Source of the DNA: Clostridia bacterium
GTDB taxonomy: Bacteria; Bacillota; Clostridia; Oscillospirales; Acutalibacteraceae
Assembly (NCBI GenBank): GCA_017507805.1
Contig: JAFWAC010000009.1
Coordinates: forward strand, 23,893-87,892
Direction: 5' to 3'
Length of the DNA stretch: 64,000 nt
Below are positions 12,501 through 38,396 of the stretch, piece by piece. The first letter of the stretch is position 1. Each line of letters opens with the position of its first letter. The translations under genes were made by a program, and so were the position numbers. The notes beneath the pieces are model-generated. The model did no database searches. It had not been told where the DNA came from and worked only from the letters and a program-made list of their open reading frames with translations.

Positions 12501-14097
12501 AAAGCTTGTAAACATTGCCCTTTGTAAGCGGATAGATAAGCTTAACATTTGCTTCAGTCCATCCGGCGTCCTCTGCAACCGAAAGGTCGGCAACAACATT
12601 TCCGTCCAGAGTGGCGGTGGTGGGGTTGCCAGCAGCAAAGCTCATACTATCAAAATCGTAAACCTGCTTGTCAGCAGACATATCAAGCTTTTCGATTGTT
12701 ATATCATCGATATAAAGGGTTGTTCCGGTTTGAACATTATAGAACCAAAAATGGGTTGAAGCATAGGTTGCAGTGAATACCTGAGAATAGGTTGCCCATT
12801 CCTCAGAGTAAACATCAAAAGCATTTCCTGCAGGGCTGGTTGCAATACCGTAGCTGTTGTAAGCCGAGCCCCAACCGCCGTCATTGGCATAGCCCATTAC
12901 ATTACCGCTTCCCATATATTTAAAGGAAATCTTGTAATACTCGCCCTGAACAAGAGGATAGTCAAGCTTAGCATTCATTTCTGCCTTTGAGGAGGTGGAA
13001 AAATTAGCTGCAATTGTGCCGTTATTATCTGCACCTGTTACAATGGTGGTTGAAAAAGCTTTTGTCGGATATTCAGAAAACTCAACAGCATCAAAATCAT
13101 AAACCTGCTTATCGGCAGTGTTTGTGTTTACAGTGGCAGTCTCTTTAAGAATAATCTGTGAGAAGTAAATTGTTCCCGCCGCCTGACTATACAAAGCAAA
13201 CATCTGACCGTCCGCAGTTGCGGTGTGTGTAAAGGTCTCGGTTCTCCAAGAACCTGTATCGTAAGCATAACTACCGTTAATCGTTCCGTCCACAGAGCTT
13301 GCCATCCAGGCATCTGTTTTATATGTAACAGTCAAATCATAGGTTGTATTCGCTTTAAGCTTGTAGGGAATATAGAACCTTTTTGCAAAGTTGCTGCTTG
13401 TCGCACCAATTGTACCAACCGCAACATTCTTGCCCAATTCCTCGTTATATTCATAATGTACTGTGTTGGAGCCTGTATTTGCAAAAACAGGTAATGCATC
13501 AACAGTTTCAATGTTTGAAAAATCTGTGATAAGGGGCAAATTTTCAGCATCATAATGAGAAGCTTCAATAATGTAAATATCATCAAAATTAATGGTGCTC
13601 TTTGCAACATTGAATTTCAAGAAAGCGTCCTCAATAGAGCAGGTATATTCCATTACAAAAGAATTCCACGCACCTGCTGAAGCACCGCCAAAGCTTTTTA
13701 TTTCAGCACTGTTGCCTTCCCAGATACTGAACCAGGAATAATCATCAACACCCTTGTTTTCAACATAATACATACCTCCTACAATATATGTTGTTCCAAC
13801 GGTAAAATCATAGCCTTTTAATGAATAGTTAGCTAATGTGCCTGCATCACTGCCTATAGCCTTAAGGCTGTAGCTACCGCGGGCAACCTCGGACGAAACC
13901 GCAAAGCGGTCAGCCGAAGAAACACTGTCGGTCGAAGGAATTGCTCCCTCCTCAAAATCGGTTACATTTTTGTTGGCAATAGCAGTCGTTTCTGCCGAGG
14001 CGGTGAAACCGGCAGACAAAATGCTTGTGAGCATTAAAGCCATTACCAAGGTCACTGAAAGAATTTTTGAAAAAGCCTTGTTAAAATTCTTTTTCAT
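9583..14097 (-). CDS. Large secreted multi-CBM, dockerin-like, beta-helix protein
   Basis: This is a secreted 1504-residue protein. The start is placed at the ATG at 14097 because AAAGGGGA lies just upstream and a clean signal peptide follows (MKKNFNKAFSK..., ending GFTASAE). A longer open frame to 14214 has no such support. Residues ~40-760 hold four or five beta-sandwich repeats, each closing with phrases such as TLYIDDITIE, like CBM4/9-type modules. At ~770-830 is a dockerin-like duplex, GDVNNDCSVNNTDLVLMKQW followed by DDYDEIDIRDLIRMKR, unusual in being internal. Next comes a discoidin-like part, and from ~990 to the end a right-handed beta-helix starting YVSNDGSDSNDG that is paralogous to the neighbouring lipoprotein. 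Probable role: binding and perhaps cleavage of complex polysaccharide outside the cell. Enzyme class is not determined. Confidence 0.82.
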   Translation of the reverse strand: MKKNFNKAFSKILSVTLVMALMLTSILSAGFTASAETTAIANKNVTDFEEGAIPSTDSVSSADRFAVSSEVARGSYSLKAIGSDAGTLANYSLKGYDFTVGTTYIVGGMYYVENKGVDDYSWFSIWEGNSAEIKSFGGASAGAWNSFVMEYTCSIEDAFLKFNVAKSTINFDDIYIIEASHYDAENLPLITDFSNIETVDALPVFANTGSNTVHYEYNEELGKNVAVGTIGATSSNFAKRFYIPYKLKANTTYDLTVTYKTDAWMASSVDGTINGSYAYDTGSWRTETFTHTATADGQMFALYSQAAGTIYFSQIILKETATVNTNTADKQVYDFDAVEFSEYPTKAFSTTIVTGADNNGTIAANFSTSSKAEMNAKLDYPLVQGEYYKISFKYMGSGNVMGYANDGGWGSAYNSYGIATSPAGNAFDVYSEEWATYSQVFTATYASTHFWFYNVQTGTTLYIDDITIEKLDMSADKQVYDFDSMSFAAGNPTTATLDGNVVADLSVAEDAGWTEANVKLIYPLTKGNVYKLSYDYKGSGGMRHIPNSGSWGNEMYSAEQSFDNGNNDLSLNSEDWATHTTVFTAEYASTNIFLRSGVAGSTLYLDNITIEDVTADYDAYNYIADFETEDQLVEGSGGVSIAYEDDADFGKVAKITYSKISFNDTHCVKLPVFRLMAGETYRIKFTYKSDTWFCGWFDGAAQAGVAGIGAPKTPVTEWEECYFTITATTTGTFGIGTNMVDPNRAEADRYGDSASLWIAELAVERVNTEAGDVNNDCSVNNTDLVLMKQWFIGAVTGYDIFTYNLSMDDYDEIDIRDLIRMKRTLAGVGAPVSVILDECSTDAELYSSAQNIYKNGGSEPLGDTSRYILNAVDTEGYIIYYAHNGLEEAAIQYDRGEETDWEMTVYTSVDQTEWTEISADTVSSEFNSNGWLIATNYYGDLSGKYLKIVFPNINSQFGLRKVYINGLDGAALSAIGAQNTELREAATIYVSNDGSDSNDGLTEATALATLDAAVSTALVPGDTIALACGDTFEGGAVLAASGTADAPITLTSYGSGEKPVITIPAGENALDVTGEYIEISNLAFTGKTGFSALDFYALEAGATKGLGVKNCEFYDINHTTAATSDDSGAIHFHAMCSDPAWFDGVTVANNSFDSVARTAVFAESEWIAIDRSQTWGNRNLSLYDGSPYLAQNFVVRGNTINNNGGDAIMLIGTQGARIEYNVVSNSKLLVELPEQSSFAAVWFHSSVDGIIQYNEVYGTTGTNGGTDLWAFDIDHACTGCIVQYNYSHENEGGMVIVCGTDGENNSMVQNTTVRYNISVNDGLGEDRSALDFSSGINNVLVHNNTIIAKETDRFFTIADYNNAEVGPTNIKFYNNLFYNANENANAITYGGDYAVADQITVEFYNNVFRNVNDLPWTHTNLWSNPVYNGNIEKDDTLLNGIADFINNTTITKGLTSVYNTCSPVDGSVLLTGGYDVSSITGFADYVAVDYTGTAFEGNLIGAIS

Positions 14098-14428
14098 CAG
14101 GAAATCCCCTTTCAAAAAATTAATAAATAAAATTTTTGTTACACAAATCCATAGTATCCAACATTTTCTGCATTGCCTTTGTGCAACCTGACAATTATAT
14201 TTTATCATAATCATTTACAAAAAAATAGGCTAATATTCCAATAAATATATCAATATTCAACACTCTGAAAGGCATTTTATCGTGCTAATCAAACTGACCT
14301 TTTGTAGGGGAGGCGTTTCGCCTCCCGCCAGCTTTTATTGCTTTTTGTGGAAAGAGAACCAGACGGGAGGGGGCACCCCTCCCCTACGACATATCCTTTA
14401 TACAGCAAAACTATACGAGTTATTAGTT
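14098..14428. other. Intergenic region with AT-rich leader and complete REPIN-like element
   Basis: About 330 bases between the AraC gene and the 1504-aa protein. It holds the ribosome site of the latter, an AT-rich leader (14190-14280) likely to contain its promoter, and a complete inverted repeat element at 14281-14420. I could not place a convincing -35/-10 pair. Confidence 0.5.
14281..14420. repeat. REPIN-like inverted element (GTAGGGGAGG ... CCTCCCCTAC)
   Basis: Outer arms GTAGGGGAGG and CCTCCCCTAC are complementary. Each half is itself a hairpin, GGGAGGCG ttt CGCCTCCC on the left and GGGAGGGG gca CCCCTCCC on the right. The left flank CTGACCTTTT matches the flank of the copy at 51294, and the right flank ACATATCCTTTATAC matches the copy near 59825. 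Confidence 0.7.
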
Positions 14429-24682: not shown

Positions 24683-24724
24683 AAAAACACGGTAGAAGTT
24701 AAAAATAACTTCTACCGTGTTTTT
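24683..24724. terminator. Bidirectional terminator between the glycyl radical enzyme and the helicase/kinase run
   Basis: AAAACACGGTAGAAGTTA / TAACTTCTACCGTGTTTT is a near-perfect 18-bp stem with a short A-rich loop and U-runs on both sides. It ends two convergent operons. Confidence 0.9.
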
Positions 24725-24744: not shown

Positions 24745-26010
24745 TTATGCTTTTGGCAATTCATTTTGTATTCCAAGCTCCTTTGATATGCCGAGAAGCA
24801 AATCGGTTTGGGTATCATTTTCCGAAAACGCCGCCTCAAGCATAATGTTAAGCTCATTAAGTGGAGTTTGCTCTGCCAGAATTTTAAGATACTGGCACAC
24901 AAATGCAAGCCTTTTATCGGCAGTATCGCGGCTAAAGCTTGCAAAATTTCCCGCGTATGACGGGTAAGAATAGGTATAAATATTATTAACCGAGCCCAAG
25001 CCTGTCAACAGCTTTAAAACATCAAAATTATATTCGGTCAATGCTCTGCCCGAAATTATGAAACGGTGGTCTGACACCTGCTCGGTAAACTCAGGTCTAA
25101 GCTTCAGGCCCTCGTTTAAATAATATTCTATACCGCTTTTAAATCTTTCCCTCGAAGCCTCCTTCATTGCAAGCTCGCTCACCTGCAAGGCGGCGTTGTT
25201 TACAATTTCCTGTCCCTGCGCTGTATTATAAACCGGATACTGAAGTCCTAACATTCGGGCGGTTTTCTCCTCTCCGATACCAAAGGGCTGCCAGAGGAAA
25301 TAGGGCTGTTTACCGTCCTCAGAAATTTCAATATCAGCAAAAATCAAGGGCTCATAGCCCTCAAGCTGAATCAAATAGGCAGCGGCATATTTGATACCCA
25401 CAAACTGAGGGTCGGATATCCCTGTCACATTTACACTTATACTGCTGCGTGCGCGATTTCTAAGTGCCATATCACAGCCATCGTTAAAACGCGAAATGAC
25501 CGTAGCAGTATCGGTAAAATCAATACCGCCTATAACCACCGAATAGGCTATATGCTTTTCAAAATCCTCCTCAGAATATGCAGTTCTGCCAAGTCTTAAG
25601 GGATAACCGTTGACGGCATCCACCTCAAAGGTCTGGCGCATACTTTTGGGTAAAATTTTTCTGTTTGCCGCTAAAGATTGCTTTCCAAGCTTTGTCACGG
25701 CAAGTGTGTCATCAAGATAACAGTAGCTTCGAAGCAACTTGGTTATTTGCGCGACATATCGGGTTGTGAGCCCCATAAAGCCCGATATTTCCTCCATACT
25801 GCAAAAGCCCGCATCATAGAATTTAAGCACAGCCCGTTCAACCGCGGTGAAATCCTCATAGCTTTCCTCGCTTATACCTGCATCAATTACCGCAATCGGA
25901 TAATAAACCTTTGAAAAAAGCTGTAAATAATTCAGGTCTATAAAGGGGTATGTACGGCAAATTCTGCGAAGGGCATCATCCATATTGATACCGGTTTTAT
26001 TATTCGCCAA
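24745..26010 (-). CDS. Unknown protein with N-terminal winged-helix-like region, last gene of kinase/helicase cassette
   Basis: 421 residues. I place the start at the TTG at 26010, because GGTGGAGGTG lies six bases ahead inside the end of the helicase gene; a GTG at 26025 and an ATG at 25983 are less well supported. Residues ~55-115 look like a winged helix (FTAVERAVLKFYDAGFCSMEEISGFMGL, then TRYVAQITKLLRSY and an LAVTKLGKQSL wing). The remainder (~150-421) is a mixed alpha/beta domain that I do not recognise, with no membrane segment and no nuclease motif (PLD HxK, HNH or GIY) that I could find. It overlaps the helicase gene by 11 bases, so translation is probably coupled. It may be a nucleic-acid-binding adaptor of the helicase; this is inference. 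Confidence 0.75.
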   Translation of the reverse strand: MANNKTGINMDDALRRICRTYPFIDLNYLQLFSKVYYPIAVIDAGISEESYEDFTAVERAVLKFYDAGFCSMEEISGFMGLTTRYVAQITKLLRSYCYLDDTLAVTKLGKQSLAANRKILPKSMRQTFEVDAVNGYPLRLGRTAYSEEDFEKHIAYSVVIGGIDFTDTATVISRFNDGCDMALRNRARSSISVNVTGISDPQFVGIKYAAAYLIQLEGYEPLIFADIEISEDGKQPYFLWQPFGIGEEKTARMLGLQYPVYNTAQGQEIVNNAALQVSELAMKEASRERFKSGIEYYLNEGLKLRPEFTEQVSDHRFIISGRALTEYNFDVLKLLTGLGSVNNIYTYSYPSYAGNFASFSRDTADKRLAFVCQYLKILAEQTPLNELNIMLEAAFSENDTQTDLLLGISKELGIQNELPKA

Positions 26011-29000
26011 GGATTTCACCTCCACCTATTTTTTGTAAAAAACTCTTTGATGAAATAATCTCGCCGGCATTTTTCTCGTTTATATTTTTCATTATAAGCT
26101 TTATAAATGCGGCAAACCTTTTAGAACGCTTTCCCGACCTTTCAAGCACCTCTTTGCAGGCATTAAGATATGAAAAATCGCCCACGATAACAAGCACCTT
26201 TTTGGCGCGGGACATTGCAACATTAAGACGGCGCAGGTCATTAAGAAAACCAACTTTAAGGCTTTCTGCCTCAGAACTTCTTGTGAAGCTGTAAATAACA
26301 ACATCACACTCCTGACCTTGGAAGCTGTCAACAGTGGATACTGCCTGACTATCGCCATTTCCTATTGCTGACCTTATTTCATCCACCTGAGCATTAAGGC
26401 CCGCAAGCGCCTTGACCGACAAATGGGAATAGTTCCCTTGGCTTAAGGCTTTATAAAGCAACGCTATGATTTTTGCCTCGTAGGTATTTTTAAAGGTGTC
26501 GTTTCCGTTAAAATTAACTTCCTTTTCGAAGCGTTCCTCACTATCTGAGGTGTCGATAAGTAAAAGCTGATAATCTGACAGAAAATCAATGCGGTACTTA
26601 TCCGCGCGCTTGCTCTCAAGTGTTTTATAGTCACCGAAATAAAAAGCTTCGGAAAGTATATCGGCAACCTCACCCGGAATACGGAATTGAGTGTCAAGCA
26701 TAATTTTATTGGTATTGGGGGTTTTGTCATAAATTTCCTCAAAAAGGCTCTTTGAATACAAAGTACTGTCAGTACCCAACCCCTCAATAATTTGCCCAAC
26801 CTCCGAATTACTGAAAGGAGGCAGTTGTTTATGGTCACCAAGCATTATAACCTTATTTGAAAGTGTCATTGGAACAAGGCAATCGTGAATTCTTATCTGT
26901 CCTGCTTCATCAATAATCGTTACATCATAATCGAGCGAAGCAAACATAGGGTTAATCGCAGCACCTATACAGGTTCCGCCCACAACATTTATATTTTCAA
27001 GCATAAGCTGCTCTAAAGCGTAATTCTGCTTGGAGCATACCTCATCGTTCCACTCAAGCATAATCTGCATTGCTTTTCGGTACTTTTCTGCCTGCATCAG
27101 CTCATTTGTCCATTTTTCGCTTTTAGATTCTTGCTTGAAAAAGCCGTAAAGCTGCCATGCATCAAGCTCTGCAGCAGTGCTGTATTCAGGACTTGAAGCA
27201 ACAAAATTTCTTGCTATTTCAGCAAATTCATCTAGCCGCTTGTGGAACGGAAGAAACAAATTACTGTATACATATTCGGTTTCGGAATTATATTCCGATA
27301 TTCTGTAATTCAAGCTCAAGGCAAATTTGTTCTGCGCCGCGGCTTTCCTTTCAAAGCTTTTCTTAGGATTTACATAGAGATTGGAAAAAAGCATTTCCAA
27401 AAATTCAAAGAAAAAATATTTTTTCTTGCGTTTAGAGTATTCAAAATAATCTTTCTTTAAATTATCGCGGCTATCCCGCAAGGTCATTTTATCCTTTAGG
27501 ATTTTTTCATAATTTTCAGAGAGTAGCTTTGCCGCACGGTTAAGCCTTTGCTCCTCGGCCTCCAATGCCTGTATTCCCCGACTAAGCTGTTGCTTTCCGT
27601 CAACTGTTCTGCAAAATTGCGCAAGAGAGTCATACTTGCTTTTTATTTTTTCCGAAATTTTATGTCTTGCCTCGGAAATTTTACCGTCATACAAAAGGTG
27701 CGCAACATCGGGGTCGCACTTTTTCTTTTTTCCGGTTCTTATGATTTCCAAGCCCTCAACACCGTCAAGCCGTTTGAGCACATTGTCAACCGCAGTATTG
27801 TTTTGCGAAGCAATAAGCACACGCATATTTTTCTTCAAGGCAAAATATTTAACCCATTCAAGTATAACAGTGGTTTTTCCCGTTCCGGGAGGGCCCATAA
27901 CGAGGTAGCCATCCTTACTGTTGATGGCATTTGTCACTGCCTTTATCTGTGAATCGGTCAAGGGATATTTTCGGTTTTTTAAATCGGCTTTCAGCTCGGA
28001 AAGGTCATTTTCCTCAAAGCCGGCAGGGCTGTTATAGCCTATAAAATCCCCTATATACTGCGATTTGGCTGTACCCTCCAGAATACCCGAAACCGCCGTC
28101 AGTTGAACATCCCTTACTGCAGAGGAGGCAATAAAGGATATATCCCCCGAGGGCTTAAGACGGGAGAAAATAATCTGATTTGAGAACATCAGGTCAAGAA
28201 AAGCCTCTTTTCCCTCGGCTTCGCAGGCTATTACAGTTGCCCTTAAGGGACGGTCGTTTATATCGTATACCGTCAGTTCGGTATTTTCCTCTATGTCGGC
28301 AATTTTTTGGGCATTTTTAAAATAAAACCTGTAGCAGGTGTATTTATCCGAATGGGCTTCACTGCTTGATGAAACCTTGTAATAATGGATTTTTCCCTTT
28401 CGCTCAGCCTCGGTAAGCTCAAATGAATAGTCCGATTCGGCATATTTTTGAGCAAGGTCACAAAGCCTCAAAAGCTCCCCGTTTTTATTCTCGGTTTCCT
28501 CCGCTTCTGTGTCCTCGGCAGAAACTTCATCGGAGATATTTTCTTCAAAAATATCCTCACCGTAAATCCTGTGAAATTCCCCGTCTATTTTCTCAAGAAT
28601 AGCCCTACAGCCGTTTCTGTCACCGTAGCTCACTGAATTTCCGCCGTAATAATTATAAAAATCAACACCCGACCTTACGGTAAGGTAGGAGCCGCAACTT
28701 GATATGAAGGTGATTCCCCTAACCATTGCCGCGTTTTTGGAAATAAAATTTTCCGCAATAATGTTCTTGACGAAAAAATTGGGATAGGTCTGTCCCCTCA
28801 CGCAAACGATGGTGCCGAAATCGCAAATCACATTATATTCGGTGCTGTATGAGCCGTTTCTGTCCTTTACAAGGCGGCGTTCAATCAAAAAGCTTTTCTG
28901 TGCAGACAGCTTTTTAAAAAGAGCTTCCGTTTCAGGAAACTCCTCTCTGATTTCACCGTAAGCCTTTTCTGCAATAAAGAAAGAAAAGCTGCCGCTGACA

Positions 29001-29035
29001 GAAGCCATCTGCTTAAGCGGAATTTTATTTATCAT
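26000..29035 (-). CDS. UPF1-like superfamily 1 helicase (COG1112 type)
   Basis: 1011 residues from the ATG at 29035 (MINKIPLKQM), which has TTGGAGG seven bases ahead inside the small gene upstream. Residues 1-~360 are a family-specific N-terminal part with an acidic linker (~165-185). The helicase core has Walker A GPPGTGKT near residue 380, Walker B DEAGQ near 708, GDHKQLPP, DTQFRIP, and motifs V and VI as STVDSFQGQE and RRLNVAMSRAKK. Between Walker A and B is a ~250-residue mostly helical insertion, partly coiled coil. No nuclease domain is evident. Such enzymes unwind RNA or DNA with ATP. Coupling to kinase and pseudokinase genes suggests regulation by phosphorylation and recalls helicase-kinase defence loci. 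The start overlaps the upstream stop by 11 bases. Confidence 0.9.
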   Translation of the reverse strand: MINKIPLKQMASVSGSFSFFIAEKAYGEIREEFPETEALFKKLSAQKSFLIERRLVKDRNGSYSTEYNVICDFGTIVCVRGQTYPNFFVKNIIAENFISKNAAMVRGITFISSCGSYLTVRSGVDFYNYYGGNSVSYGDRNGCRAILEKIDGEFHRIYGEDIFEENISDEVSAEDTEAEETENKNGELLRLCDLAQKYAESDYSFELTEAERKGKIHYYKVSSSSEAHSDKYTCYRFYFKNAQKIADIEENTELTVYDINDRPLRATVIACEAEGKEAFLDLMFSNQIIFSRLKPSGDISFIASSAVRDVQLTAVSGILEGTAKSQYIGDFIGYNSPAGFEENDLSELKADLKNRKYPLTDSQIKAVTNAINSKDGYLVMGPPGTGKTTVILEWVKYFALKKNMRVLIASQNNTAVDNVLKRLDGVEGLEIIRTGKKKKCDPDVAHLLYDGKISEARHKISEKIKSKYDSLAQFCRTVDGKQQLSRGIQALEAEEQRLNRAAKLLSENYEKILKDKMTLRDSRDNLKKDYFEYSKRKKKYFFFEFLEMLFSNLYVNPKKSFERKAAAQNKFALSLNYRISEYNSETEYVYSNLFLPFHKRLDEFAEIARNFVASSPEYSTAAELDAWQLYGFFKQESKSEKWTNELMQAEKYRKAMQIMLEWNDEVCSKQNYALEQLMLENINVVGGTCIGAAINPMFASLDYDVTIIDEAGQIRIHDCLVPMTLSNKVIMLGDHKQLPPFSNSEVGQIIEGLGTDSTLYSKSLFEEIYDKTPNTNKIMLDTQFRIPGEVADILSEAFYFGDYKTLESKRADKYRIDFLSDYQLLLIDTSDSEERFEKEVNFNGNDTFKNTYEAKIIALLYKALSQGNYSHLSVKALAGLNAQVDEIRSAIGNGDSQAVSTVDSFQGQECDVVIYSFTRSSEAESLKVGFLNDLRRLNVAMSRAKKVLVIVGDFSYLNACKEVLERSGKRSKRFAAFIKLIMKNINEKNAGEIISSKSFLQKIGGGEILGE

Positions 29036-29171
29036 TCTTTTCCTCCAAGCCGACAATTTCTTCAAAGGTTTTTTCCTCGACCGGCTCTACCCTGAACAAG
29101 GGAGATGTGCCGGAAGCATTTATTTTTAAAAGCTCTAAGAACTTATCAATTTTATTGTTTGGATTTTCCAT
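29025..29171 (-). CDS. 48-aa acidic small protein between kinase and helicase
   Basis: ATG at 29171 preceded by AAGGGG at the right distance, then 48 codons and TAA at 29025-29027. The product (MENPNNKIDKFLELLKINAS...) is charged and likely helical at both ends, with PLFRVEPVEEKTFEEIVG in the middle and no membrane segment. Its stop overlaps the helicase start by 11 bases and its own start lies ten bases after the kinase stop, so it is embedded in the operon with no slack. The ribosome site for the helicase lies inside its last codons. It may be a real small subunit or a coupling leader peptide. No family was recognised. Confidence 0.6.
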   Translation of the reverse strand: MENPNNKIDKFLELLKINASGTSPLFRVEPVEEKTFEEIVGLEEKNDK

Positions 29172-29181
29172 TTTATTCCCC

Positions 29182-30006
29182 TTAATAAAGCTTTCTTAAT
29201 TCCTCACGAAGCTGTTTTGCCGAATATCTGTCCCGAGGGAGAAAGCTCATACACTTCAAAATTATGTTTTCCTTGGTTTCGCTGATCGGATTTTTGCCAA
29301 GCTGTGCCCTTATTTCATTAGGTCGCACAAAATCCGCCCATCTGTTCTTACCGCAGGAATAATGCATATTATTAATCGGCTTCTGCCCTGTATAATACTC
29401 ATACATTATAGCTCCAAGGGCAAAAACATCCACGCCGGTGCGGTCGGGACTGCTGTCCGAAAGCTCGGTTTCGGGAGCTCTGTAGCCGACAGTGCCCTCG
29501 TTGATGTTAGAGTTTGAAACACTTATGTTAAAATCAAGTAGTACAACCTCTCCGGCTTGGGTTAACATTATGTTTTCGGGCTTTATATCCTTGTGATAAT
29601 ATCTCTTTGAGTGCATTACATCGAGGGTATCGCAAATCTGCACCAAAAAGGTCAAAAAAGCCTTTTCTGAAATTTTGTTCATTTTAGCACGCAGTGTCTC
29701 GCCGCGAAAATATTGCATTACAATATAATATTTACCCAGCTCACTGTCAAAATGTGTTTCAAGCAGACAAGGAATGTGGGTGGTTTCGTCCGAGAGGGTG
29801 CGCAAAACCGTAACCTCGGTTTCAATTTTAGCAAGGCTTTCCTTTGCAGAACGGTTTTCATAAACCGACAAATCTATCTCCTTAATACAAACCGAGCGCT
29901 CCTGCGTTTCATCATAAGCCACATAAACCTTACTGTAGCCCGTCTGACTTAATATTTTCTCGATGCTGTAATCGTGAACGGTTGTAATCTCCATATAATC
30001 CACCAT
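29182..30006 (-). CDS. Cytosolic Ser/Thr protein kinase
   Basis: 274 residues, a stand-alone Hanks-type kinase domain with no transmembrane helix and no PASTA repeats. It carries the catalytic Lys42 in VCIKEID, the HRD-type loop as HKDIKPEN (Asp near residue 135), the metal-binding motif as DFN (near 158) in place of DFG, then TVGYRAPE and DVFALGAIMYEYYTG. All catalytic residues are there, so it should be active despite the Asn in DFN. The ATG overlaps the stop of the upstream pseudokinase gene (TAATG), the mark of translational coupling. The likely substrates are its operon partners. It is not the PrkC housekeeping kinase. Confidence 0.9.
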   Translation of the reverse strand: MVDYMEITTVHDYSIEKILSQTGYSKVYVAYDETQERSVCIKEIDLSVYENRSAKESLAKIETEVTVLRTLSDETTHIPCLLETHFDSELGKYYIVMQYFRGETLRAKMNKISEKAFLTFLVQICDTLDVMHSKRYYHKDIKPENIMLTQAGEVVLLDFNISVSNSNINEGTVGYRAPETELSDSSPDRTGVDVFALGAIMYEYYTGQKPINNMHYSCGKNRWADFVRPNEIRAQLGKNPISETKENIILKCMSFLPRDRYSAKQLREELRKLY

Positions 30007-31445
30007 TAGCTATTAATAATTTCTCTTAATCTCTGACAAACAGTTGCGGCATCAGGTCGGCGCATTGAAAGTGAAAGCATATCAAAGATAAGCTTGTGCA
30101 GGCGCGTGTCGGCTATTCCGGCGGAAATAAGCTCGTTTTTCATTCTTGGGAAATAATCCCCGATGCTCTTGCTGTCAATCACAATGAAATCACAAAACCT
30201 TGCGCACAAAATATCAAAAAACAACATTCCCAAGGAATATATATCAATCGGTGCGCCTTGCTCGGATGCCACATTGAACCACTCAATCGGTATATACTTT
30301 GAAACTGTGCGGTCTTTAACCGAAAGGATTTTTTTCTTTTGCTCCCTATCAAGCGAGGTATCCTGGTCGGCGGTATCCATTTTGGCAAAGAAAAAATTAG
30401 TAATAGCAGGATACCACCTCGCCCCTGCATGATTTTCGCAAAGATAAATACAGCCGTAATTAAGCAGGCGGTGATAAATCCGCACCTCGTCTCCGTTATG
30501 AAGCTCGCGGATAATCTCTGCGATACGCAATGCCACATCCAGCCTTTCGCTTACAGACATTTTCTTTAAAAGCTCCTCGGTAAGAGGCTTGGGCTCCTTT
30601 GCAAAAATGTGTGCCAGAATATAATATTCACTGTCTGATTCTGTTCCTGCAACCGTGAAAATGTCTTTAATGCCTCTGCCGAAAATAATGCTGTCATTCT
30701 CATTATAAGCGGTGGTACTGCGTTTTTGAGCAGTCCGGCTCATTCCGTCATCCTTGGGGAAAAATTGCAGAATTGCATATCGGGGAGAATTGGTGGAACG
30801 GTAATACATTGCTTCATACTCAAAACGGCAGTTTGTGAAATTTCGGCTATACATTACCGGCTTTTTCCTTATAATCTCAAACCGATACTCCGCATCCTTG
30901 TTTTCAATGGGGGCTTTTTCAATATTAAAATAAGGTATACCCGAAGCACCTAAAAATTTACATATATACTTGTGAAGCTGAAAGGCGCAATCAAGAATGT
31001 GAAAATAATCTATCACATACTCAGGGTCGTTTTCCTTTTTTATAAGCTTTTTCCCGTGATGGAATTTGTTTCCGAATGAGCGCAGATAAAAAAGAACATA
31101 AAGCTTTTCCTTATCAAATTTATAGCCCTCGGCAAACCGTGTCTTAAAAACACCGCCTTTCTTATATTCCGTGGAGATAGGATAATCTGTGATATACCGA
31201 TTTTTAGTTAGAAAAAACAAACCGTTTCCCAAATTATCCTCCCTGCCGTTTTCTGCAAGGTATGTGTTATAGTCATCCCACAAGCCAAGCTTTTCAAGGC
31301 AGTACTGATAAAACTCGTCAAGAAATTCGCGCATGCTTGCCCCTGCAGATTTCATAGAAATCTGTAATTTACACTCAAACTCGTATAATTTTTCAGTAGG
31401 GAAATTTTCATCGTAAGCTTTTATAAAATCAAAATTAGATGCCAC
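30006..31445 (-). CDS. Large protein with C-terminal pseudokinase domain
   Basis: 479 residues from a GTG at 31445 with AAGGTGA upstream. The N-terminal ~230 residues are a unique, mostly helical region. The rest follows the layout of a protein kinase but lacks its catalytic residues: YHRLLNYGCIYL near 321-332 stands where HRDxKPxN would be, and TNFFFAK near 349 stands where DFG would be. The later IDIYSLGMLFFDIL (~402) matches the DVxSLG helix well, and a final RRPDAATVCQRL resembles the RPS/RxT end. It is therefore a pseudokinase, possibly a scaffold or allosteric activator for the active kinase encoded next (TAATG overlap). The function is otherwise unknown. Confidence 0.75.
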   Translation of the reverse strand: MASNFDFIKAYDENFPTEKLYEFECKLQISMKSAGASMREFLDEFYQYCLEKLGLWDDYNTYLAENGREDNLGNGLFFLTKNRYITDYPISTEYKKGGVFKTRFAEGYKFDKEKLYVLFYLRSFGNKFHHGKKLIKKENDPEYVIDYFHILDCAFQLHKYICKFLGASGIPYFNIEKAPIENKDAEYRFEIIRKKPVMYSRNFTNCRFEYEAMYYRSTNSPRYAILQFFPKDDGMSRTAQKRSTTAYNENDSIIFGRGIKDIFTVAGTESDSEYYILAHIFAKEPKPLTEELLKKMSVSERLDVALRIAEIIRELHNGDEVRIYHRLLNYGCIYLCENHAGARWYPAITNFFFAKMDTADQDTSLDREQKKKILSVKDRTVSKYIPIEWFNVASEQGAPIDIYSLGMLFFDILCARFCDFIVIDSKSIGDYFPRMKNELISAGIADTRLHKLIFDMLSLSMRRPDAATVCQRLREIINS

Positions 31446-31461
31446 TTAACACTTCACCTTT

Positions 31462-31941
31462 TTAATTTTTTTCTCTGAAATAAGGATTATCAAGCCTTTC
31501 ATGCCTTGAAAGGAAGTATACCGTATCGGGCTGATTTTGGATATGCGGTGTTTTGCCCGATTTTAATTGCGGCATACTGCAGGGCAGCTTGGGTGTTTCA
31601 TCAGCTTGAATTTCAGGCACAGGCTCCCGGGACAACTCCTTTAAGCCTGACGGAAACTCCTCAATTTCGTCCAAAGCGGTGCTTGAATTCTCTGCCGCAA
31701 GGCTTTCTGAGGAAAGTGCCGAAAACTCTCTCATGCGGTGAAAGCCTCCTACTTCCTTCAAATCCAGCCTCACACCCGGAGTTATAGGCGGAATCACACC
31801 AAAAATAAAAAGCAGTGTGACAATAATAATCACAGGTATCAAATAAACCAAAAACGGAGCAAGCAAGCGAATAATTATAAAAACTGCCGCCAATATGCCA
31901 AGTATCCGCAGTATTTCATCAAAGTCTTTTTTCTTATGCAC
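31462..31941 (-). CDS. Two-helix membrane protein with cytosolic tail, first gene of the coupled cassette
   Basis: 159 residues from a GTG at 31941 with AAGGAGG seven bases ahead. Residues ~10-52 are two closely spaced hydrophobic helices (ILGILAAVFIIIRLLAPF and LIPVIIIVTLLFIFGV) with a short turn. Residues 55-159 form a hydrophilic, Ser/Thr/Pro-rich tail (SALSSESLAAENSSTALDEIEE). The tail ends in LSRHERLDNPYFREKN. With a kinase encoded 1.5 kb on in the same operon, that tail is a plausible phosphorylation target and the protein a membrane anchor for the complex. No family was recognised. The next gene follows 16 bases later. Confidence 0.75.
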   Translation of the reverse strand: MHKKKDFDEILRILGILAAVFIIIRLLAPFLVYLIPVIIIVTLLFIFGVIPPITPGVRLDLKEVGGFHRMREFSALSSESLAAENSSTALDEIEEFPSGLKELSREPVPEIQADETPKLPCSMPQLKSGKTPHIQNQPDTVYFLSRHERLDNPYFREKN

Positions 31942-31973: not shown

Positions 31974-33599
31974 TTAAGCCTTAAGGCAGAGCAATTCATT
32001 CACATTGAGACAAAAGCCCTTTTCACCCAAAGCGTCCGCAAGGCCCGACCTTTTCATAAGCTTTATAGGTTGCTCATTCACCTTTAAAAGCACAAGCCTG
32101 ATGCCTTTATCATTACATTTCCTGTTAATAGCCTCAAGCGAGTTCATAGCGGTGGAATCAAGGGCTGTTACACCGCCCATATCAAGCACAAGATATTCGG
32201 TATTTCCGTCAAGCGGGATATTGTCTATCTTATCTGCAGAGCCGAAAAACAAAGCGCCCTTTACCTCAAAAAGCCTTATTTCTTTGGGTATCTCTGCACC
32301 CTCTATACAGGTAACGGGCAAAATTTCGGTCTTGTCGCTCATACGCTTCATAAAGAGAAGCACCGTCAGCACCATACCAACCGCAATAGCAACCACCAAA
32401 TCGAAAATCACGGTAAGGACAAAGGTAGCAACCGCAACCAGAATATCACTCTTGGTTGCCGTTTGAATAATCCGCTTGAATTTGCGCCATTCACTCATAT
32501 TATAAGCTACCATAAACAAAATAGCCGCTATTGCGGGCATTGGAATTAAGCCGGCGTATGGCATCAGGAGCAACAGCACCAACAGCAATACAACCGAATG
32601 TACCATACCGGCAACAGGTGTTCTGCCGCCGTTTTTTATGTTTGCGGCTGTACGGGCGATTGCTCCCGTTGCAGGAATACCGCCAAACATCACCGAACCG
32701 ATATTTGCCACGCCCTGTGCCATAAGCTCTGCATTGGAATTATGACGTGAGCCCACCATATTATCAGCAACCACACAGGAGAGCAGTGATTCAATAGCGG
32801 CGAGAACGGCAATTGTGAAGGCATCGGGCAAAAGCTCTGCAACCTTTGACAGACTAAGCTCCATTCCGCCCAAATCCACCTTGGGTAATCCCATCGGAAT
32901 ATTATAAAGCTCACCAATGGTATTAACACCGCTGTCAAGCCCCGGAATAAGCTTTACCATTGCGGCTCCCACCACCACCGCAATAAGTGACGGCGGCACC
33001 CGTTTCTCGAACAAAGGGTAAACAATAAGTATCGCAAGGCAAACTGCCCCCACAAGCAAGGCCTGCCAGCTAAAGGTGTGTGCAGCCGCTATATTGGCTT
33101 CAATTTTTTCGACCGTTTCAATCGGCTTTGTACCTTCGGGGTAGGTAAGCCCCAAAAAGTCCTTTATCTGACCTATGAATATTGTAACGGCAATACCCGC
33201 AGTGAATCCGGTGGTGATTGTGTGTGGAATAAATTTAATAAGTCCGCCAAGCTTTAAAATTCCCATCAGCACAAGCATGATGCCTGCAAGAACTGTGGCA
33301 ATGAAAAGTCCGCCCATTCCCTGTGCGGCAACAATTCCTGCCACAACGGTTGCAAATGCCGCTGTCGGACCTGCAATCTGCACACAGCTTCCGCCCAGAA
33401 GCGATACGATAAAGCCTGCCGCAATGGCAGTGTATATACCGCAGGCAGGCTCCACTCCCGAAGCAATTGCCAATGCAATGGAAAGCGGAAGCGCAATAAC
33501 CGCAACAATAATACCTGCAACAATGTCGTTAATACACTGTTTTTTACTGTAATCCTTTATAACCGAAAAAAGCTTCGGCTTTAAATAAAACTCACTCAT
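31974..33599 (-). CDS. SulP (SLC26)-family anion transporter with STAS domain
   Basis: 541 residues. Ten to twelve membrane helices fill residues ~25-410, beginning with NDIVAGIIVAVIALPLSIALAIASG, the signature start of SulP proteins, and including GPTAAFATVV. The C-terminal ~110 residues are a STAS domain (EYLVLDMGGVTALDSTAMNSLEAI), which regulates transport and whose Ser/Thr at the TALDST position corresponds to the phosphorylated site of anti-sigma antagonists. Members carry sulfate, bicarbonate or dicarboxylates; the substrate here is not decidable. The gene sits 32 bases ahead of the kinase cassette and may be co-transcribed, which makes regulation of its STAS domain by the neighbouring kinase conceivable. 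Confidence 0.9.
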   Translation of the reverse strand: MSEFYLKPKLFSVIKDYSKKQCINDIVAGIIVAVIALPLSIALAIASGVEPACGIYTAIAAGFIVSLLGGSCVQIAGPTAAFATVVAGIVAAQGMGGLFIATVLAGIMLVLMGILKLGGLIKFIPHTITTGFTAGIAVTIFIGQIKDFLGLTYPEGTKPIETVEKIEANIAAAHTFSWQALLVGAVCLAILIVYPLFEKRVPPSLIAVVVGAAMVKLIPGLDSGVNTIGELYNIPMGLPKVDLGGMELSLSKVAELLPDAFTIAVLAAIESLLSCVVADNMVGSRHNSNAELMAQGVANIGSVMFGGIPATGAIARTAANIKNGGRTPVAGMVHSVVLLLVLLLLMPYAGLIPMPAIAAILFMVAYNMSEWRKFKRIIQTATKSDILVAVATFVLTVIFDLVVAIAVGMVLTVLLFMKRMSDKTEILPVTCIEGAEIPKEIRLFEVKGALFFGSADKIDNIPLDGNTEYLVLDMGGVTALDSTAMNSLEAINRKCNDKGIRLVLLKVNEQPIKLMKRSGLADALGEKGFCLNVNELLCLKA

Positions 33600-34038: not shown

Positions 34039-35481
34039 TTATTCCTTTGAAATGACATTATTATAGGCTTCCTTCAGTCTGTCAAACATCAAATTCTTTC
34101 TCTTTTGCTCCGTGTCAATTTCCTTGATATACTTTCCTATCTCGCGCAGCATTCTCGAAGCATCGTATTCAGAAAAGCTGTCAAGAGTGTCTACAACCTG
34201 CAAAAAATATTCAAGCTTTATGTAATTTTCAAGCTCGGGATTTTCATCATTTGCATTTTCCATATCGTCATACAGCTTTTCAAGAATATCAAGAGCAATC
34301 TCATCGTTTTTCTTGGCTGCATCAAGCTCGTTCAAATTTCTGTAAAAGTTAGCTACATTGCGGTAGGAATAGCCAAGCATTATGTTTGCAAAGCCCTTAT
34401 TTTCGGGCGCAAGCTTTGACATAAACAGCAGATTTTCTATTGATTTTTCTCCGTAGGTTATAGCAATGCGGTTGATAATCTCGTCCGCTGTATGCTCAGG
34501 ATTGTCAAGATAAGCCATAAACCAAAGTGAAAGATGCTGTAATGATTGGGTGGCAATCCAAGCGCTCACCTCGCCTCTTTCCTTTAAAAAATTCTCATCA
34601 ACAACCGCTTTGCTCATATCAAATCTGCGGACATTCACATTTTCGTCATTTGAGAAAGCCTGTACTATGAGCTTTCTGTACTTACTGTGCACACGGTCAA
34701 AGGTATCCTCAGATATTATAAGCTTATTGTTTACGGTTTCGGCATTCTCAATAGACAAGAACATATCAAATGCATTCATCGCAAATTCCAATGCCGTTTC
34801 AAGGGTTGCCGAGCCTGCATTGTGTAGCTCCCTTTTAAAGCTTTTGCATTTAGTTTGGGCAAGCAATATCTTTTGCCGCATATATGCACCCTGAACATAA
34901 ACTATCAGATGCTTTGCCAGCTCATAATCCGAAATTCTCGGATTTTCAAGGTGCTCCTCAATTTCATAGCTTATGCGGTGATAATGGTTGACCAGCTTCG
35001 CCAAATCAGTCCTTGGTATCAATCGCTGACGGTCTTTGAAAAGGTCTACAATCCTTTCCGCCATTGCATCATCCTCTGCCCCCTCGCAGGATGCAGACCA
35101 AATTCCGTGTAAATCGGACGGGAGAAGCGAGTTTTCCTCCTCCTTGGAAATATTTATCTTAAATATGTGCATTCGTGAGGAGCTGTATCTTGAATACAAA
35201 TATCCCATTTCATAAATCAGATTTCCGCTTAACTTTGCCGCTGTTTTGCTGTCATCCTCGGCGGTTTTGCCGCGGTAAAGCATTATTGCCTGACTGCAGC
35301 GGTGCATTTGATATCTGATTGTTTCATTTACGGTTTGAAAGGATTTTTTTGTTATGACATCGGGGTTACCGGAATACTCTCCCCCTATAACACCCATATA
35401 CCCCGCCTTATCAAGAATTTCCTTGACCTTAACGGCAAGTGCATTATCCTTATTCCAACCGATAAAAATTAAATCCTTCAT
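34039..35481 (-). CDS. TIR-like domain protein with C-terminal helical (TPR-like) region
   Basis: 480 residues. The start is the ATG at 35481 (MKDLIFIGWN) with an AGGAAG site; an open frame reaching back to 35745 runs through the upstream gene and is not used. Residues 1-~140 resemble the TIR-like, nucleotide-binding domain of CAP12/PF10137-type proteins: IFIGWNKDN at the start, a central strand QAIMLYRG, then NLIYEMGYLYSRY, where Glu91 stands at the position of the TIR NADase catalytic acid, and SDLHGIWS near the end. The rest is helical, with a TPR-like stretch (RNVANFYRNLNELDAAKKNDEIAL). TIR-like proteins of this sort act as defence effectors that destroy NAD+; whether this one does is inference. 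It starts one base after the acetyltransferase stop. Confidence 0.72.
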   Translation of the reverse strand: MKDLIFIGWNKDNALAVKVKEILDKAGYMGVIGGEYSGNPDVITKKSFQTVNETIRYQMHRCSQAIMLYRGKTAEDDSKTAAKLSGNLIYEMGYLYSRYSSSRMHIFKINISKEEENSLLPSDLHGIWSASCEGAEDDAMAERIVDLFKDRQRLIPRTDLAKLVNHYHRISYEIEEHLENPRISDYELAKHLIVYVQGAYMRQKILLAQTKCKSFKRELHNAGSATLETALEFAMNAFDMFLSIENAETVNNKLIISEDTFDRVHSKYRKLIVQAFSNDENVNVRRFDMSKAVVDENFLKERGEVSAWIATQSLQHLSLWFMAYLDNPEHTADEIINRIAITYGEKSIENLLFMSKLAPENKGFANIMLGYSYRNVANFYRNLNELDAAKKNDEIALDILEKLYDDMENANDENPELENYIKLEYFLQVVDTLDSFSEYDASRMLREIGKYIKEIDTEQKRKNLMFDRLKEAYNNVISKE

Positions 35482-35482
35482 A

Positions 35483-36145
35483 TCAAGCTTCCTGTTCTGT
35501 AAAATTTTCGGGGCAATCAAACATCTCTTGCAGCAAAATAAAGGCTTGGGACACATCATATCCATCAGCAAGGGAGTGGTTTGCGGTGATGCTGAAGGTA
35601 CACCTTGTGCGTCCGTTTTCCTCGGTGTATTTACCCCAGGAGACACGCGGAATACAGCTATTTTCCGGCATTCTTTCGGGGACAGGCTCTGAAACCGAAA
35701 CAAAATCAACCCACGGCACACAGGAGCAATAAATATCGTCCACAATAGTGGTGTTATTAAATTCCTTCGGCAGGACAGGGTTTTCCCTTAACCGCGTTGT
35801 CTGCTCCTTGACCAAGCGGCAGAACTCGAAATAATCAGTAGCTGTGTTTGTGCGGTTGTTAAGAAAGAAATCCTTTCTGACACTGAAGGTATAAGCAACA
35901 TTTGCACGGGGAATTTCATAAACCTTACCCTCCAATATTCTGTACCTCAGCGGTTTAATACTGTTAAGTGCCTTGGCAACAAAAAACATAACCGAAGCAA
36001 AGGAGGAGGTATTATTTTTTTTGCAAAACTCCAAGAGCCTTGTCACATCCATTCGCACCGCTATTGCAAAGCAAGGATTGTCAAAGCTTGAAAACCATTC
36101 ATAATGCGTTTTTCTTTCCCAAGAATTAATATCAATTTCTTTCAT
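35483..36145 (-). CDS. CatA-like O-acetyltransferase (chloramphenicol acetyltransferase fold)
   Basis: 220 residues from the ATG at 36145, the usual length for the trimeric CAT family; a GTG at 36157 would overlap the GGGTGG ribosome site. The active-site motif is NHSLADGYDVSQAF (~185-198), equal to the family HHxxxDG with its catalytic His, though the preceding His is replaced by Asn. Other matches are RMDVTRLLEFCKK and LRYRILEGKVYE. The family transfers acetyl from acetyl-CoA to a hydroxyl. Many members are not resistance enzymes, and without the canonical second His chloramphenicol should not be assumed. It is the first gene of the minus-strand run that ends at 24745. Confidence 0.85.
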   Translation of the reverse strand: MKEIDINSWERKTHYEWFSSFDNPCFAIAVRMDVTRLLEFCKKNNTSSFASVMFFVAKALNSIKPLRYRILEGKVYEIPRANVAYTFSVRKDFFLNNRTNTATDYFEFCRLVKEQTTRLRENPVLPKEFNNTTIVDDIYCSCVPWVDFVSVSEPVPERMPENSCIPRVSWGKYTEENGRTRCTFSITANHSLADGYDVSQAFILLQEMFDCPENFTEQEA

Positions 36146-36245
36146 ACTGCCACCCACACAACAAATAAATACAATTAAGCCATAATTTCGCCATTTTATT
36201 ACCTTTTATAGTATCATATACAAAATCCAAAGTCAACAGCCGACA

Positions 36246-36305: not shown

Positions 36306-38396
36306 TTACTCGTTATCGTCTGCAACGGTTTCAACCTCAGCAACCTCTGCTGCCTCGGTTACTTCCTCTGCTTCGGCAGGTGTTTCTGCTGTTTCGTAAA
36401 CAATTTCATCCTCTGCGTCAGCGGGAGCTGCCTGCTCCTCCTCAGTCTCAAGCAAAGCACGGATAGAAAGGCTTACGCGCTTCTTATCAAAGTCAACAGC
36501 GGTGATTTTAGCATCAATCTCCTGACCGACTGTAAGCTCATCCTGCGGCTTAGCAATGTGCTTGTTAGCAATCTGAGAAATATGGATAAGACCGTCAATT
36601 CCGGGAATGATGCGAGCAAAAGCACCGTATGTAGTCATGCTGACTACGGTAACCTTTACAACATCGCCTACGCTGTAGTTATTTTCAAAGATTACCCACG
36701 GATTATCCTCGGGCTTCTTGAAGCCGAGAGAAATCTTTCTCTTTTCGGTATCGATAGCCTTTACATAAACCTCAATGGTGTCTCCAACCAAAACTACCTC
36801 GGAAGGATTCTTGATTCTTGACCAAGAAAGCTCAGAAATATGAACCATACCGTCCACACCGCCGATATCAACAAATGCGCCGTAGCCTGTAAGAGACTTA
36901 ACGGTACCTGTGAAGCGGTCGCCGACAGCAATTTCAGACCAAAGCTTGTCCTCGGCAGCCTTTCTCTGTTCACGGAGAACACTGCGGATAGAGCCGATGG
37001 CTCTGCGGCCTCTGCCAATTTCGATAATACGGAAGGATACCTCTTTACCCTTAAGCTCCTCTAAAGAGTCGTTTCTGGAAGCAGTTGCCTGTGAAGCAGG
37101 GATAAATACCCTTACATTGTTGGTATAAACAACGACACCGCCCTTAATAATGTCCTTAACGAAACCGGTAATGATTTCGCCCGATTCTTTGGCGGCAACT
37201 ATATTGTCCCAACCGGCAATAGCATCGTAACGGCGCTTTGAAAGCATTGCGGTTCCTTCCTGGTCATTGATTTTCATAATGATAAGATTGAGCTTATCAT
37301 TGACCTTCACTTCATCCATAAGCTTAAGCGTGGGATCGGAAGAATATTCATCTGCAGAGATATATCCTGTAACTCCTCTGCCGATGTCCACTGTGATTTC
37401 AGTGGGATTAACAGCAATAACTGTACCTTCTACCTTCTGGTCTCCTGTTAAGCTGCTGAGTGAAGCTTCGAATGCTTCCTCGTCTGTCATTTCCTCGAAG
37501 CTTTTTTGAACAGATTCTTTTACCTCCATCTGTTCTTCAACCGGTTGTAAATTTTCCGACATGGTTTTAATAACCTCCTTTATAATACCTGCAGGCGTAG
37601 ATGCGCCCGCAACAACCCCAACAGTAGCAAATTCAAGCTCAAGCTCTGCCAGCTCGTCCGCCGTTTCAATCAAAAAAGTATTCGGGCAGTTTTGCCTGCA
37701 CACATCAAAAAGCTTTGCTGTGTTTGAGCTGTGTCTGCCACCGACAACTATGATCGCCTCGTTAAGACGGGAAAGCTCATCAGCCTCTCTTTGCCGCATT
37801 GAGGTAGCATTACATATTGTATCAAAAATTTCTGCATTTGTACATACTTTTTTTAAATTTTTTTGCAGGTTGTTCCAAATTTCTGCATTAAATGTGGTTT
37901 GAGATACCAAAATCAGGTTTTTTTGGGCAAAATTCTCCTTTTCGCAGAGCAATTTTTCCAATTCCTCCACACTTGAAACCACATAGTATTCCCCGAAGCA
38001 GTTTCCGATTATACCCTTAACCTCCTGATGGTTGCTGTCCCCTGCAATCACGGTTATATACCCTGCAAGGCTTTTTTCCCTTACAATGCGGTGAATTTTC
38101 GCCACAAAGGGGCAGGTTGCATCGGCAAGCTTCACGCCCAAAGCCTCCGCCCTTTCGTAAACCGAACGCGCCACACCGTGAGAACGGATAACCAGGGTTT
38201 CACCCTCCGTCACCTGTTCAGGTGACTCGACTATCCGCACACCCCTTTGCGCAAGCTCCTCTACAAGCTGAGGATTATGGATTATGGGACCTAAGGTGCA
38301 TACCCTTTCATTTTTTTCCAACAGCTCGTAGACCATATTAACCGCGCGGTCAACACCGAAGCAGAAGCCGGCAGTTTTTGCAAGTGTTATTTTCAC
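36306..38396 (-). CDS. ispH: Bifunctional HMBPP reductase (IspH) - ribosomal protein S1 fusion
   Basis: 696 residues. The first ~280 are IspH, the last enzyme of the MEP isoprenoid pathway, which reduces HMBPP to IPP and DMAPP with a [4Fe-4S] cluster. The three cluster cysteines are seen in AGFCFGVDRA (Cys12), DATCPFV (~95) and CNATSMRQ (~195). After a linker come four S1 RNA-binding repeats (~320-650), with VDIGRGVTGYI, IKGGVVVYTNNVRVFI, GYGAFVDIGGVDGMVHIS and TYGAFARIIPGIDGLIHIS, then an acidic tail. Such IspH-S1 fusions are normal in Clostridia, and the S1 part probably aids mRNA binding at the ribosome. It directly follows cmk, the usual clostridial pairing. Confidence 0.95.
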   Translation of the reverse strand: MKITLAKTAGFCFGVDRAVNMVYELLEKNERVCTLGPIIHNPQLVEELAQRGVRIVESPEQVTEGETLVIRSHGVARSVYERAEALGVKLADATCPFVAKIHRIVREKSLAGYITVIAGDSNHQEVKGIIGNCFGEYYVVSSVEELEKLLCEKENFAQKNLILVSQTTFNAEIWNNLQKNLKKVCTNAEIFDTICNATSMRQREADELSRLNEAIIVVGGRHSSNTAKLFDVCRQNCPNTFLIETADELAELELEFATVGVVAGASTPAGIIKEVIKTMSENLQPVEEQMEVKESVQKSFEEMTDEEAFEASLSSLTGDQKVEGTVIAVNPTEITVDIGRGVTGYISADEYSSDPTLKLMDEVKVNDKLNLIIMKINDQEGTAMLSKRRYDAIAGWDNIVAAKESGEIITGFVKDIIKGGVVVYTNNVRVFIPASQATASRNDSLEELKGKEVSFRIIEIGRGRRAIGSIRSVLREQRKAAEDKLWSEIAVGDRFTGTVKSLTGYGAFVDIGGVDGMVHISELSWSRIKNPSEVVLVGDTIEVYVKAIDTEKRKISLGFKKPEDNPWVIFENNYSVGDVVKVTVVSMTTYGAFARIIPGIDGLIHISQIANKHIAKPQDELTVGQEIDAKITAVDFDKKRVSLSIRALLETEEEQAAPADAEDEIVYETAETPAEAEEVTEAAEVAEVETVADDNE

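Follow-up and report, generated by a model that had tools for sequence, protein, structure and literature searches.

The window analyzed here, a 64,000-nucleotide stretch of contig JAFWAC010000009.1 from a Clostridia bacterium of the family Acutalibacteraceae, contains a tight row of six minus-strand genes within positions 24745-31941, with successive spacings of 16, -1, 10, -11 and -11 bases. In the order of transcription, these genes encode a 159-amino-acid (aa) membrane protein (31462..31941), a 479-aa pseudokinase (30006..31445), an active-looking Ser/Thr kinase of 274 aa (29182..30006; Pkinase, E 2.7e-34), a 48-aa protein represented by an open reading frame (ORF) in the interval between the kinase and the helicase (29025..29171), a 1011-aa superfamily 1 helicase of the UPF1/COG1112 type (26000..29035; AAA_11 and AAA_12 in Pfam, with an ATG start behind GGAGG), and a 421-aa winged-helix protein (24745..26010; TTG start behind GGAGG, with an alternative GTG start at 26025 that would yield 426 aa). 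On the same strand, the row is followed by an intrinsic terminator (24683..24724; 19-bp stem and T tail, -26.9 kcal/mol, z -8.8). The head of the operon is less sharp than this end and could lie further upstream because a SulP gene (31974-33599) is located on the same strand, 32 bp upstream of the gene for the 159-aa protein; scans for repeats and promoters gave nothing informative. The six genes, their strand and their spacings had been reported in an earlier note made from the letters of the DNA, and all are borne out by the ORF list and the sequence, as are its kinase and helicase assignments by Pfam.

Both the kinase and the helicase match the same PADLOC model of the Mokosh defence system, MkoA (PDLC03920), the kinase at positions 8-278 (E 7.4e-29) and the helicase, which carries an N-terminal extension of ~350 aa, at positions 448-1106 (E 3.9e-108), and the winged-helix protein matches positions 7-132 of the 610 positions of MkoB (PDLC03922, E ~1.6e-11). 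Mokosh was reportedly first described by Millman et al. in 2022. MkoB was matched by 14 of the 16 members of the winged-helix family at E up to 0.01, and comparison of this family with the MkoB of locus L009 by hhalign gave a probability of 75 and E 2.5e-5 over 174 columns; the window protein also hit the wHTH model PF24409 (E 2.2e-5, under the cut-off of that model). Like Mokosh type I, the window operon combines a kinase, a COG1112/UPF1-like helicase and an MkoB-type winged-helix N-terminus, and its helicase is a COG1112 helicase of the MkoA family, which is one of the defining features of Mokosh I. Unlike Mokosh I, it has MkoA split into separate proteins, whereas the PADLOC model fuses the kinase and the helicase, it encodes an additional, dead kinase with a DUF4145-like domain and a small protein, and it lacks the PLD nuclease that PMC10952713 lists for both Mokosh I and Mokosh II. 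The same paper lists a NERD domain for Mokosh I, and Pfam detected none in the window proteins scanned or in 16 pseudokinases of the family. Given that both a fused MkoA and a PLD domain were sought and neither was found, the operon is not classed as Mokosh I; the relation to Mokosh and the missing PLD, both pointed out in the earlier note, are upheld by the PADLOC and Pfam matches and by the motif search.

A genome scan with a single protein yielded no relative. Searching 398 genomes of the phylum with the helicase (1e-40) gave matches in four of them, namely, the window's own genome, G608 (two loci), G547 and G784. The G547 locus encodes a kinase-helicase fusion and an MkoB that has PLD; in G608, locus L008 contains a pseudokinase, a kinase, a 56-aa ORF, the helicase and the winged-helix protein, arranged in the order of the window. 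An alignment of the window and L008 helicases searched against genome contigs then produced 45 loci, from which all counts are lower bounds because the search patterns (GKTTVILE, WVKYF..) favour close relatives. In L012-L029 and L035, the helicase gene is accompanied by a kinase gene and by a winged-helix or MkoB-like one, to the extent that the contigs cover these positions. Profile searches found no kinase ORF (1e-6) and no winged-helix ORF (1e-3) at the other 26 helicase loci (L030-L034 and L036-L056), where several contigs span only 3-7 kb. The clade that includes the window comprises 18 loci (the window, L008, L012-L023, L025-L027 and L029), the named ones all from Bacillota. The order pseudokinase-kinase-helicase-winged helix is present in 16 of the 17 clade loci in which the upstream side is visible, with the pseudokinase truncated at the contig end in L012; in L020, the pseudokinase comes last, and L019 is a cut contig with the helicase and the winged-helix gene only. 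Four loci of Pseudomonadota (L024, L028, L035 and L058) represent a four-gene form that is more distant. Thus, the gene order recurs beyond chance, being shared by distant genomes but by none of the remaining 26 helicase loci from that scan.

The distance matrices of the four genes agree (Mantel r 0.81-0.89, p 0.0001 each, for the 15 loci with all four), and mean identity across these loci is only 24-37%; distances that remain correlated at such low identity indicate that the four genes have long been inherited together as a unit. A quick helicase tree with 44 sequences (midpoint root, 9 short rows omitted), with support from the Shimodaira-Hasegawa-like approximate likelihood ratio test (SH-aLRT) only, places 24 split loci on one side of a branch with a support of 97. 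The neighbouring group consists of three fused MkoA-type helicases and the helicase of L031, a locus without the kinase (support 94). Within the tree, the window clade of 18 has a support of 100, and L024, L028, L035 and L058 of the Pseudomonadota as well as L010/L011 fall outside it. The fine placement of the window helicase is unsure because of its long branch (1.52) and a program warning of meeting long branches. The earlier note had called for a check of whether homologues keep a conserved neighbourhood, and the four core genes do so. Its view of the kinase, the dead kinase and the UPF1-like helicase as a coupled unit likewise stands; its extension of this coupling to all six genes holds for the four core genes, with the small ORF present in most loci, and fails for the gene of the 159-aa protein, which is not conserved.

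Taken together, these observations suggest, with a probability of roughly 60%, that the window contains a relative of Mokosh I, an accessory defence operon with a split MkoA and an MkoB-like protein devoid of PLD. We favour this interpretation because the same four-gene order is found in distant loci and the distances of the four genes are correlated, because MkoA is matched in one half by the kinase and in the other by the helicase, and MkoB by the winged-helix protein, and because the split loci sit beside the fused MkoA helicases in the tree; the patchy distribution, the defence neighbours of five relatives, the occurrence of either NERD or DUF4145 in the same slot, and the CorA-like gene directly after the winged-helix gene in four loci, all considered below, point in the same direction. 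On the best reading, then, what is new here is a split, PLD-less relative of Mokosh I with a conserved pair of an active and a dead kinase. Such a gene set is not described in the open-access literature searched, including passages of PMC10952713, PMC12839542, PMC3710099, PMC10013915 and PMC13373217, in agreement with the failure of the earlier note to recognize a published system with exactly this composition.

The two kinases differ sharply in their catalytic residues. Lys42, Asp140, Asn145 and Asp158 of the kinase are invariant in all 16 kinases aligned. In the alignment of the 16 pseudokinases, neither the HRD Asp nor the DFG Asp is present in any member, and at the column taken to be the beta-3 Lys, the window copy has Gln and the other 15 have Arg. 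The window pseudokinase alone had no Pfam match, and matched the kinase regions of the PglW, MkoA and Mad6 models in PADLOC and NCBIfam; 13 of the 16 family members, the window copy not among them, match Pkinase at E up to 0.05. The second kinase of the window is a pseudokinase by these residue patterns, that is, a kinase fold without the catalytic Asp and with predicted inactivity. At the N-terminus, DUF4145 is detectable by Pfam in 8 of the 16 members (E up to 0.05, the lowest 1.3e-8), and all 16 retain [RK]-x3-N-x3-H; by the family alignment, the window copy probably has the same DUF4145/HEPN-like domain. According to PMC3710099, DUF4145 and KEN belong to the HEPN superfamily, for which the usual active site is Rx4-6H. 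In L011, L024, L028 and L035, the N-terminal slot of the pseudokinase is filled by a NERD domain (Pfam). These split NERD-kinase loci resemble the window clade in the four-gene order and lie on the same side of the helicase tree, but their first kinase is preceded by NERD rather than DUF4145. L058 has the same gene order, but no NERD match in that slot by Pfam; in L024, the winged-helix protein matches PADLOC MkoB weakly (E 5e-4).

The kinase domain of the dead kinase also resembles those of BREX PglW (E 6.5e-11) and MADS Mad6 (E 4.1e-9), the active kinase matches Mad6 as well, and the window helicase weakly matches MADS mad8. Unlike BREX and MADS loci, the operon showed no other model of these systems among the matches listed for nine window proteins (for the kinase, the best 25 of 37).

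An ORF of 43-59 aa between the kinase and helicase genes is found in 12 of the 17 clade loci, the window included. The candidates in L013 and L014 are weaker, the ORF of L022 and that of L025 extend across several candidate start codons of the helicase, there is no room for such a gene in L018 and L027, where the kinase and helicase genes overlap (ORFs inside the helicase gene were not counted), and the gap in L023 contains no ORF of 25 aa. The 48-aa protein has no match in Pfam, PADLOC or NCBIfam, the small proteins of the window and L008 do not align in BLASTP, and conservation is very low throughout, without an invariant motif in the alignment. Of 13 small proteins, 10 carry a negative net charge, two (L012 and L026) a positive one, and one has a net charge of zero. 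The ratio of nonsynonymous to synonymous substitution rates (dN/dS) is ~0.15 for the L012/L026 pair (dN 0.147, dS 0.999), compared with ~1 in the other two frames, and ~0.58 for the last 44 codons of the L022/L025 pair, so that the coding evidence is strong in one pair only. Judging from position and these rates, the small ORF is very likely a real gene.

The operon is rare and patchy. The helicase was found in one of 70 genomes of the genus at 1e-50 (39 of the 70 are at least 90% complete) and in one of 394 genomes of the order at 1e-60, the winged-helix protein in one of 150 genomes of the family, and the pseudokinase in one of 291 genomes of the class, in each case, the window's own genome. 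The operon may have spread horizontally. No clean empty site was identified, with the SulP neighbours differing in three same-genus genomes examined; a search at 1e-100 detected PFL relatives in 3 of another 60 genomes of the genus, and base composition over 20-40 kb gave no sign of an island. Defence genes neighbour five relatives: CRISPR-Cas I-E genes (Cas5 and Cas7e) in L013, BrxL and PglZ in L058, MkoC in L035, a NERD-UvrD helicase in L022 and a candidate nuclease in L025. The earlier note had proposed to test whether homologues sit in defence islands; defence genes are seen beside these five relatives, but many flanks look like housekeeping regions.

Several results weigh against a defence function or against the effector that it would most simply employ. 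The defence neighbours were counted without a control set. In the scan of the flanks (100 of the 156 listed flank proteins, 1e-15), each of the best 25 of 81 flank families matches one protein, as do the Cas1e, Cas5e and Cas6 models, and when 10 flank proteins were scanned one at a time, 7 had no match at 1e-10. By eye, many flanks consist of housekeeping genes, L016 lies near hrcA/dnaK, and an Hsp70 gene follows the L018 module. Viral contigs contained no relative of the pseudokinase or the helicase by the patterns used, and phage records no relative of the helicase at 1e-20, with prophages outside this search. As for the effector, Pfam detects no DUF4145 in the window pseudokinase, so that RNase activity of its N-terminal domain stays a prediction, and the invariant [RK]-x7-H spacing exceeds the canonical Rx4-6H, with an Rx6H reading at the same site possible in 9 of the 16 pseudokinases, including that of the window.

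A viral or plasmid home of the operon was considered and rejected, the viral and phage searches just described having given no relatives and none of the 51 plasmid records matched by the helicase at 1e-20 covering more than 80% of its length or reaching 60% identity. The NERD-kinase of L011 had no plasmid match at 1e-15, and the L021 helicase matched two plasmid records at 1e-50.

The housekeeping-like flanks, together with the Hsp70 and AAA genes that follow the L018 module and the identity of the nearest solved helicases (SMUBP-2, DNA2, UPF1 and SEN1), could also be accommodated by a stress or RNA-surveillance operon in which the kinase controls the UPF1-like helicase so as to regulate proteostasis or the turnover of host RNA, with no link to phages. 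We consider such RNA-stress control, which the earlier note had offered beside phage defence, unlikely and a weaker rival to the defence reading: the other 69 genomes of the genus have no helicase match at 1e-50, the proteins are homologous to those of Mokosh, and CRISPR, BREX and MkoC genes adjoin three of the relatives.

If the operon indeed functions in anti-phage defence as a Mokosh I relative, the four core proteins may form a complex in which the helicase and the winged-helix protein would serve as a sensor of foreign or abnormal nucleic acid. Nucleic-acid binding might release or activate the kinase, with the dead kinase paired to it as an allosteric partner, and phosphorylation would then switch on an effector, the simplest candidate being the DUF4145 (HEPN-superfamily) domain of the dead kinase; membrane proteins and a PD-(D/E)XK nuclease encoded at the edges could act as optional effectors. 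The HEPN-effector mechanism is much less sure than the helicase-sensor defence reading. A specific form of it, an immune switch resembling RNase L/IRE1, strikes us as doubtful: the HEPN-family RNase on the dead kinase would be held off and freed once the partner kinase is on, and jointly, with no better odds, the UPF1-like helicase would sense foreign RNA and turn that kinase on, and NERD, DUF4145, CorA-like, transmembrane and PD-(D/E)XK parts would be swapped as effectors around one signalling core. The likeness to RNase L and IRE1, with their KEN RNase, is that a kinase fold is joined to a HEPN-superfamily domain, and IRE1 is among the PDB matches of the pseudokinase family profile, alongside many other kinases. 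Unlike in those proteins, the order is reversed in the window, with DUF4145 first, and the partner kinase and the helicase are separate proteins; there is no evidence for common descent of the fusion. CapK/CapS and CapH/CapP, in which, per PMC13373217, a kinase or an M48 protease acts on a winged-helix repressor, were tried as models; since CapK belongs to the GHKL-type kinases and CapS contains a STAS domain, they serve as no more than an analogy.

The relationship to Mokosh suggests that, in a deep clade, a core of two kinases, one active and one dead, is the working partner of the Mokosh I helicase, that the nuclease parts are exchangeable, and that the small protein belongs to the system. 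Unlike fused MkoA, the split operon would be a separable system in which the kinase signalling, the UPF1-like sensor and the effector can each be mutated singly.

It might be argued that the operon is simply ordinary Mokosh type I divided into more genes and operating by the same nuclease mode of action, as the homology of the helicase, the kinase and the MkoB N-terminus and the three fused MkoA-type helicases in the nearest other tree group, with L031, a locus without the kinase, among them, would allow. This appears improbable given the consistent lack of PLD: no Pfam family of this kind is found in the window winged-helix protein and no PLD-type model among the PADLOC matches of the 16 members, and the HxKx4D motif is missing from the window protein and 15 of the 16, occurring in L025 only, near the very end and probably by chance, whereas the L009 MkoB carries PLDc_2. 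Furthermore, the split clade is deep and contains the extra dead kinase, and the match to MkoB covers no more than the N-terminal segment given above.

Two fused loci on plasmids were recorded along the way. In the Microvirga plasmid locus L057 (3273-9074), genes for a kinase-helicase fusion and a PP2C phosphatase form a tight row with a second gene that occupies the place of MkoB, a hint that phosphorylation may be reversible in fused Mokosh-like loci as well. On the Aliarcobacter plasmid pAFAEC (L059, 58-8338), a kinase-helicase fusion and the gene that follows it are neighboured by genes for SIR2 and DUF87, likely a defence island.

The genes at the edges are less constant than the core. 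The 159-aa protein has an N-terminal hydrophobic stretch at about residues 12-56, of which one segment (residues 32-50) is over the cut-off, and a soluble tail; it has no Pfam, PADLOC or NCBIfam match above cut-off and no relative in the 24 loci L012-L035, and in 200 genomes of the family, a homologue was found only in the window's own, although short hydrophobic proteins are easily missed. We regard it as accessory. The proposal of the earlier note that this protein tethers the kinases in a six-gene membrane complex and gates the helicase is very improbable given this confinement to the window genome, its 16-bp spacing on the same strand, the other membrane genes beside some relatives and the transmembrane segments fused to the winged-helix protein of L008 notwithstanding. 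Directly after the winged-helix gene, L022, L024, L028 and L058 have a gene whose CorA-like matches are partial (E 5e-17 to 4e-7); in L024, L028 and L058, which differ from the window in having this gene, its product ends in two C-terminal hydrophobic segments. L025 has a PD-(D/E)XK nuclease (candidate PDC-S26) in this position. Genes for M48 membrane proteases lie 0 bp (L025) and 73 bp (L022) from that of the pseudokinase, ~0.5 kb before the L011 module and ~6.5 kb after the L018 module; these assignments were made by Pfam for L018 and L022 and by similarity to those for L025 and L011. The edge genes look like exchangeable add-ons around a fixed core, present in a minority of the loci.

In L024 (3694-5589) and L028 (3973-5847), a gene for a protein of 624-631 aa lies 12-13 bp before the NERD-kinase gene; it has no Pfam or PADLOC match and is ~50% identical between the two Idiomarinaceae. 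In L018 (13214-20681), the module is followed by Hsp70, a TPR/AAA ATPase and two further genes (gaps of 0-33 bp), and then by the M48 protease gene, possibly making it a chaperone-coupled variant.

Elsewhere in the window, two very long minus-strand ORFs of 1392 and 1543 aa (2932-7110 and 9583-14214) have no Pfam match at 1e-5. The minus-strand gene at 36306-38396 encodes a fusion of IspH (HMBPP reductase) with ribosomal protein S1 (NCBIfam NF000907, E 3.3e-206), an arrangement that has its own family model. Closer to the operon, 2.1 kb upstream of it and directly after a gene for a CatA-like acetyltransferase (35483-36157), the minus strand encodes a TIR-domain protein of the CAP12/PCTIR type (34039-35481; E 9.2e-10), another possible immune gene.

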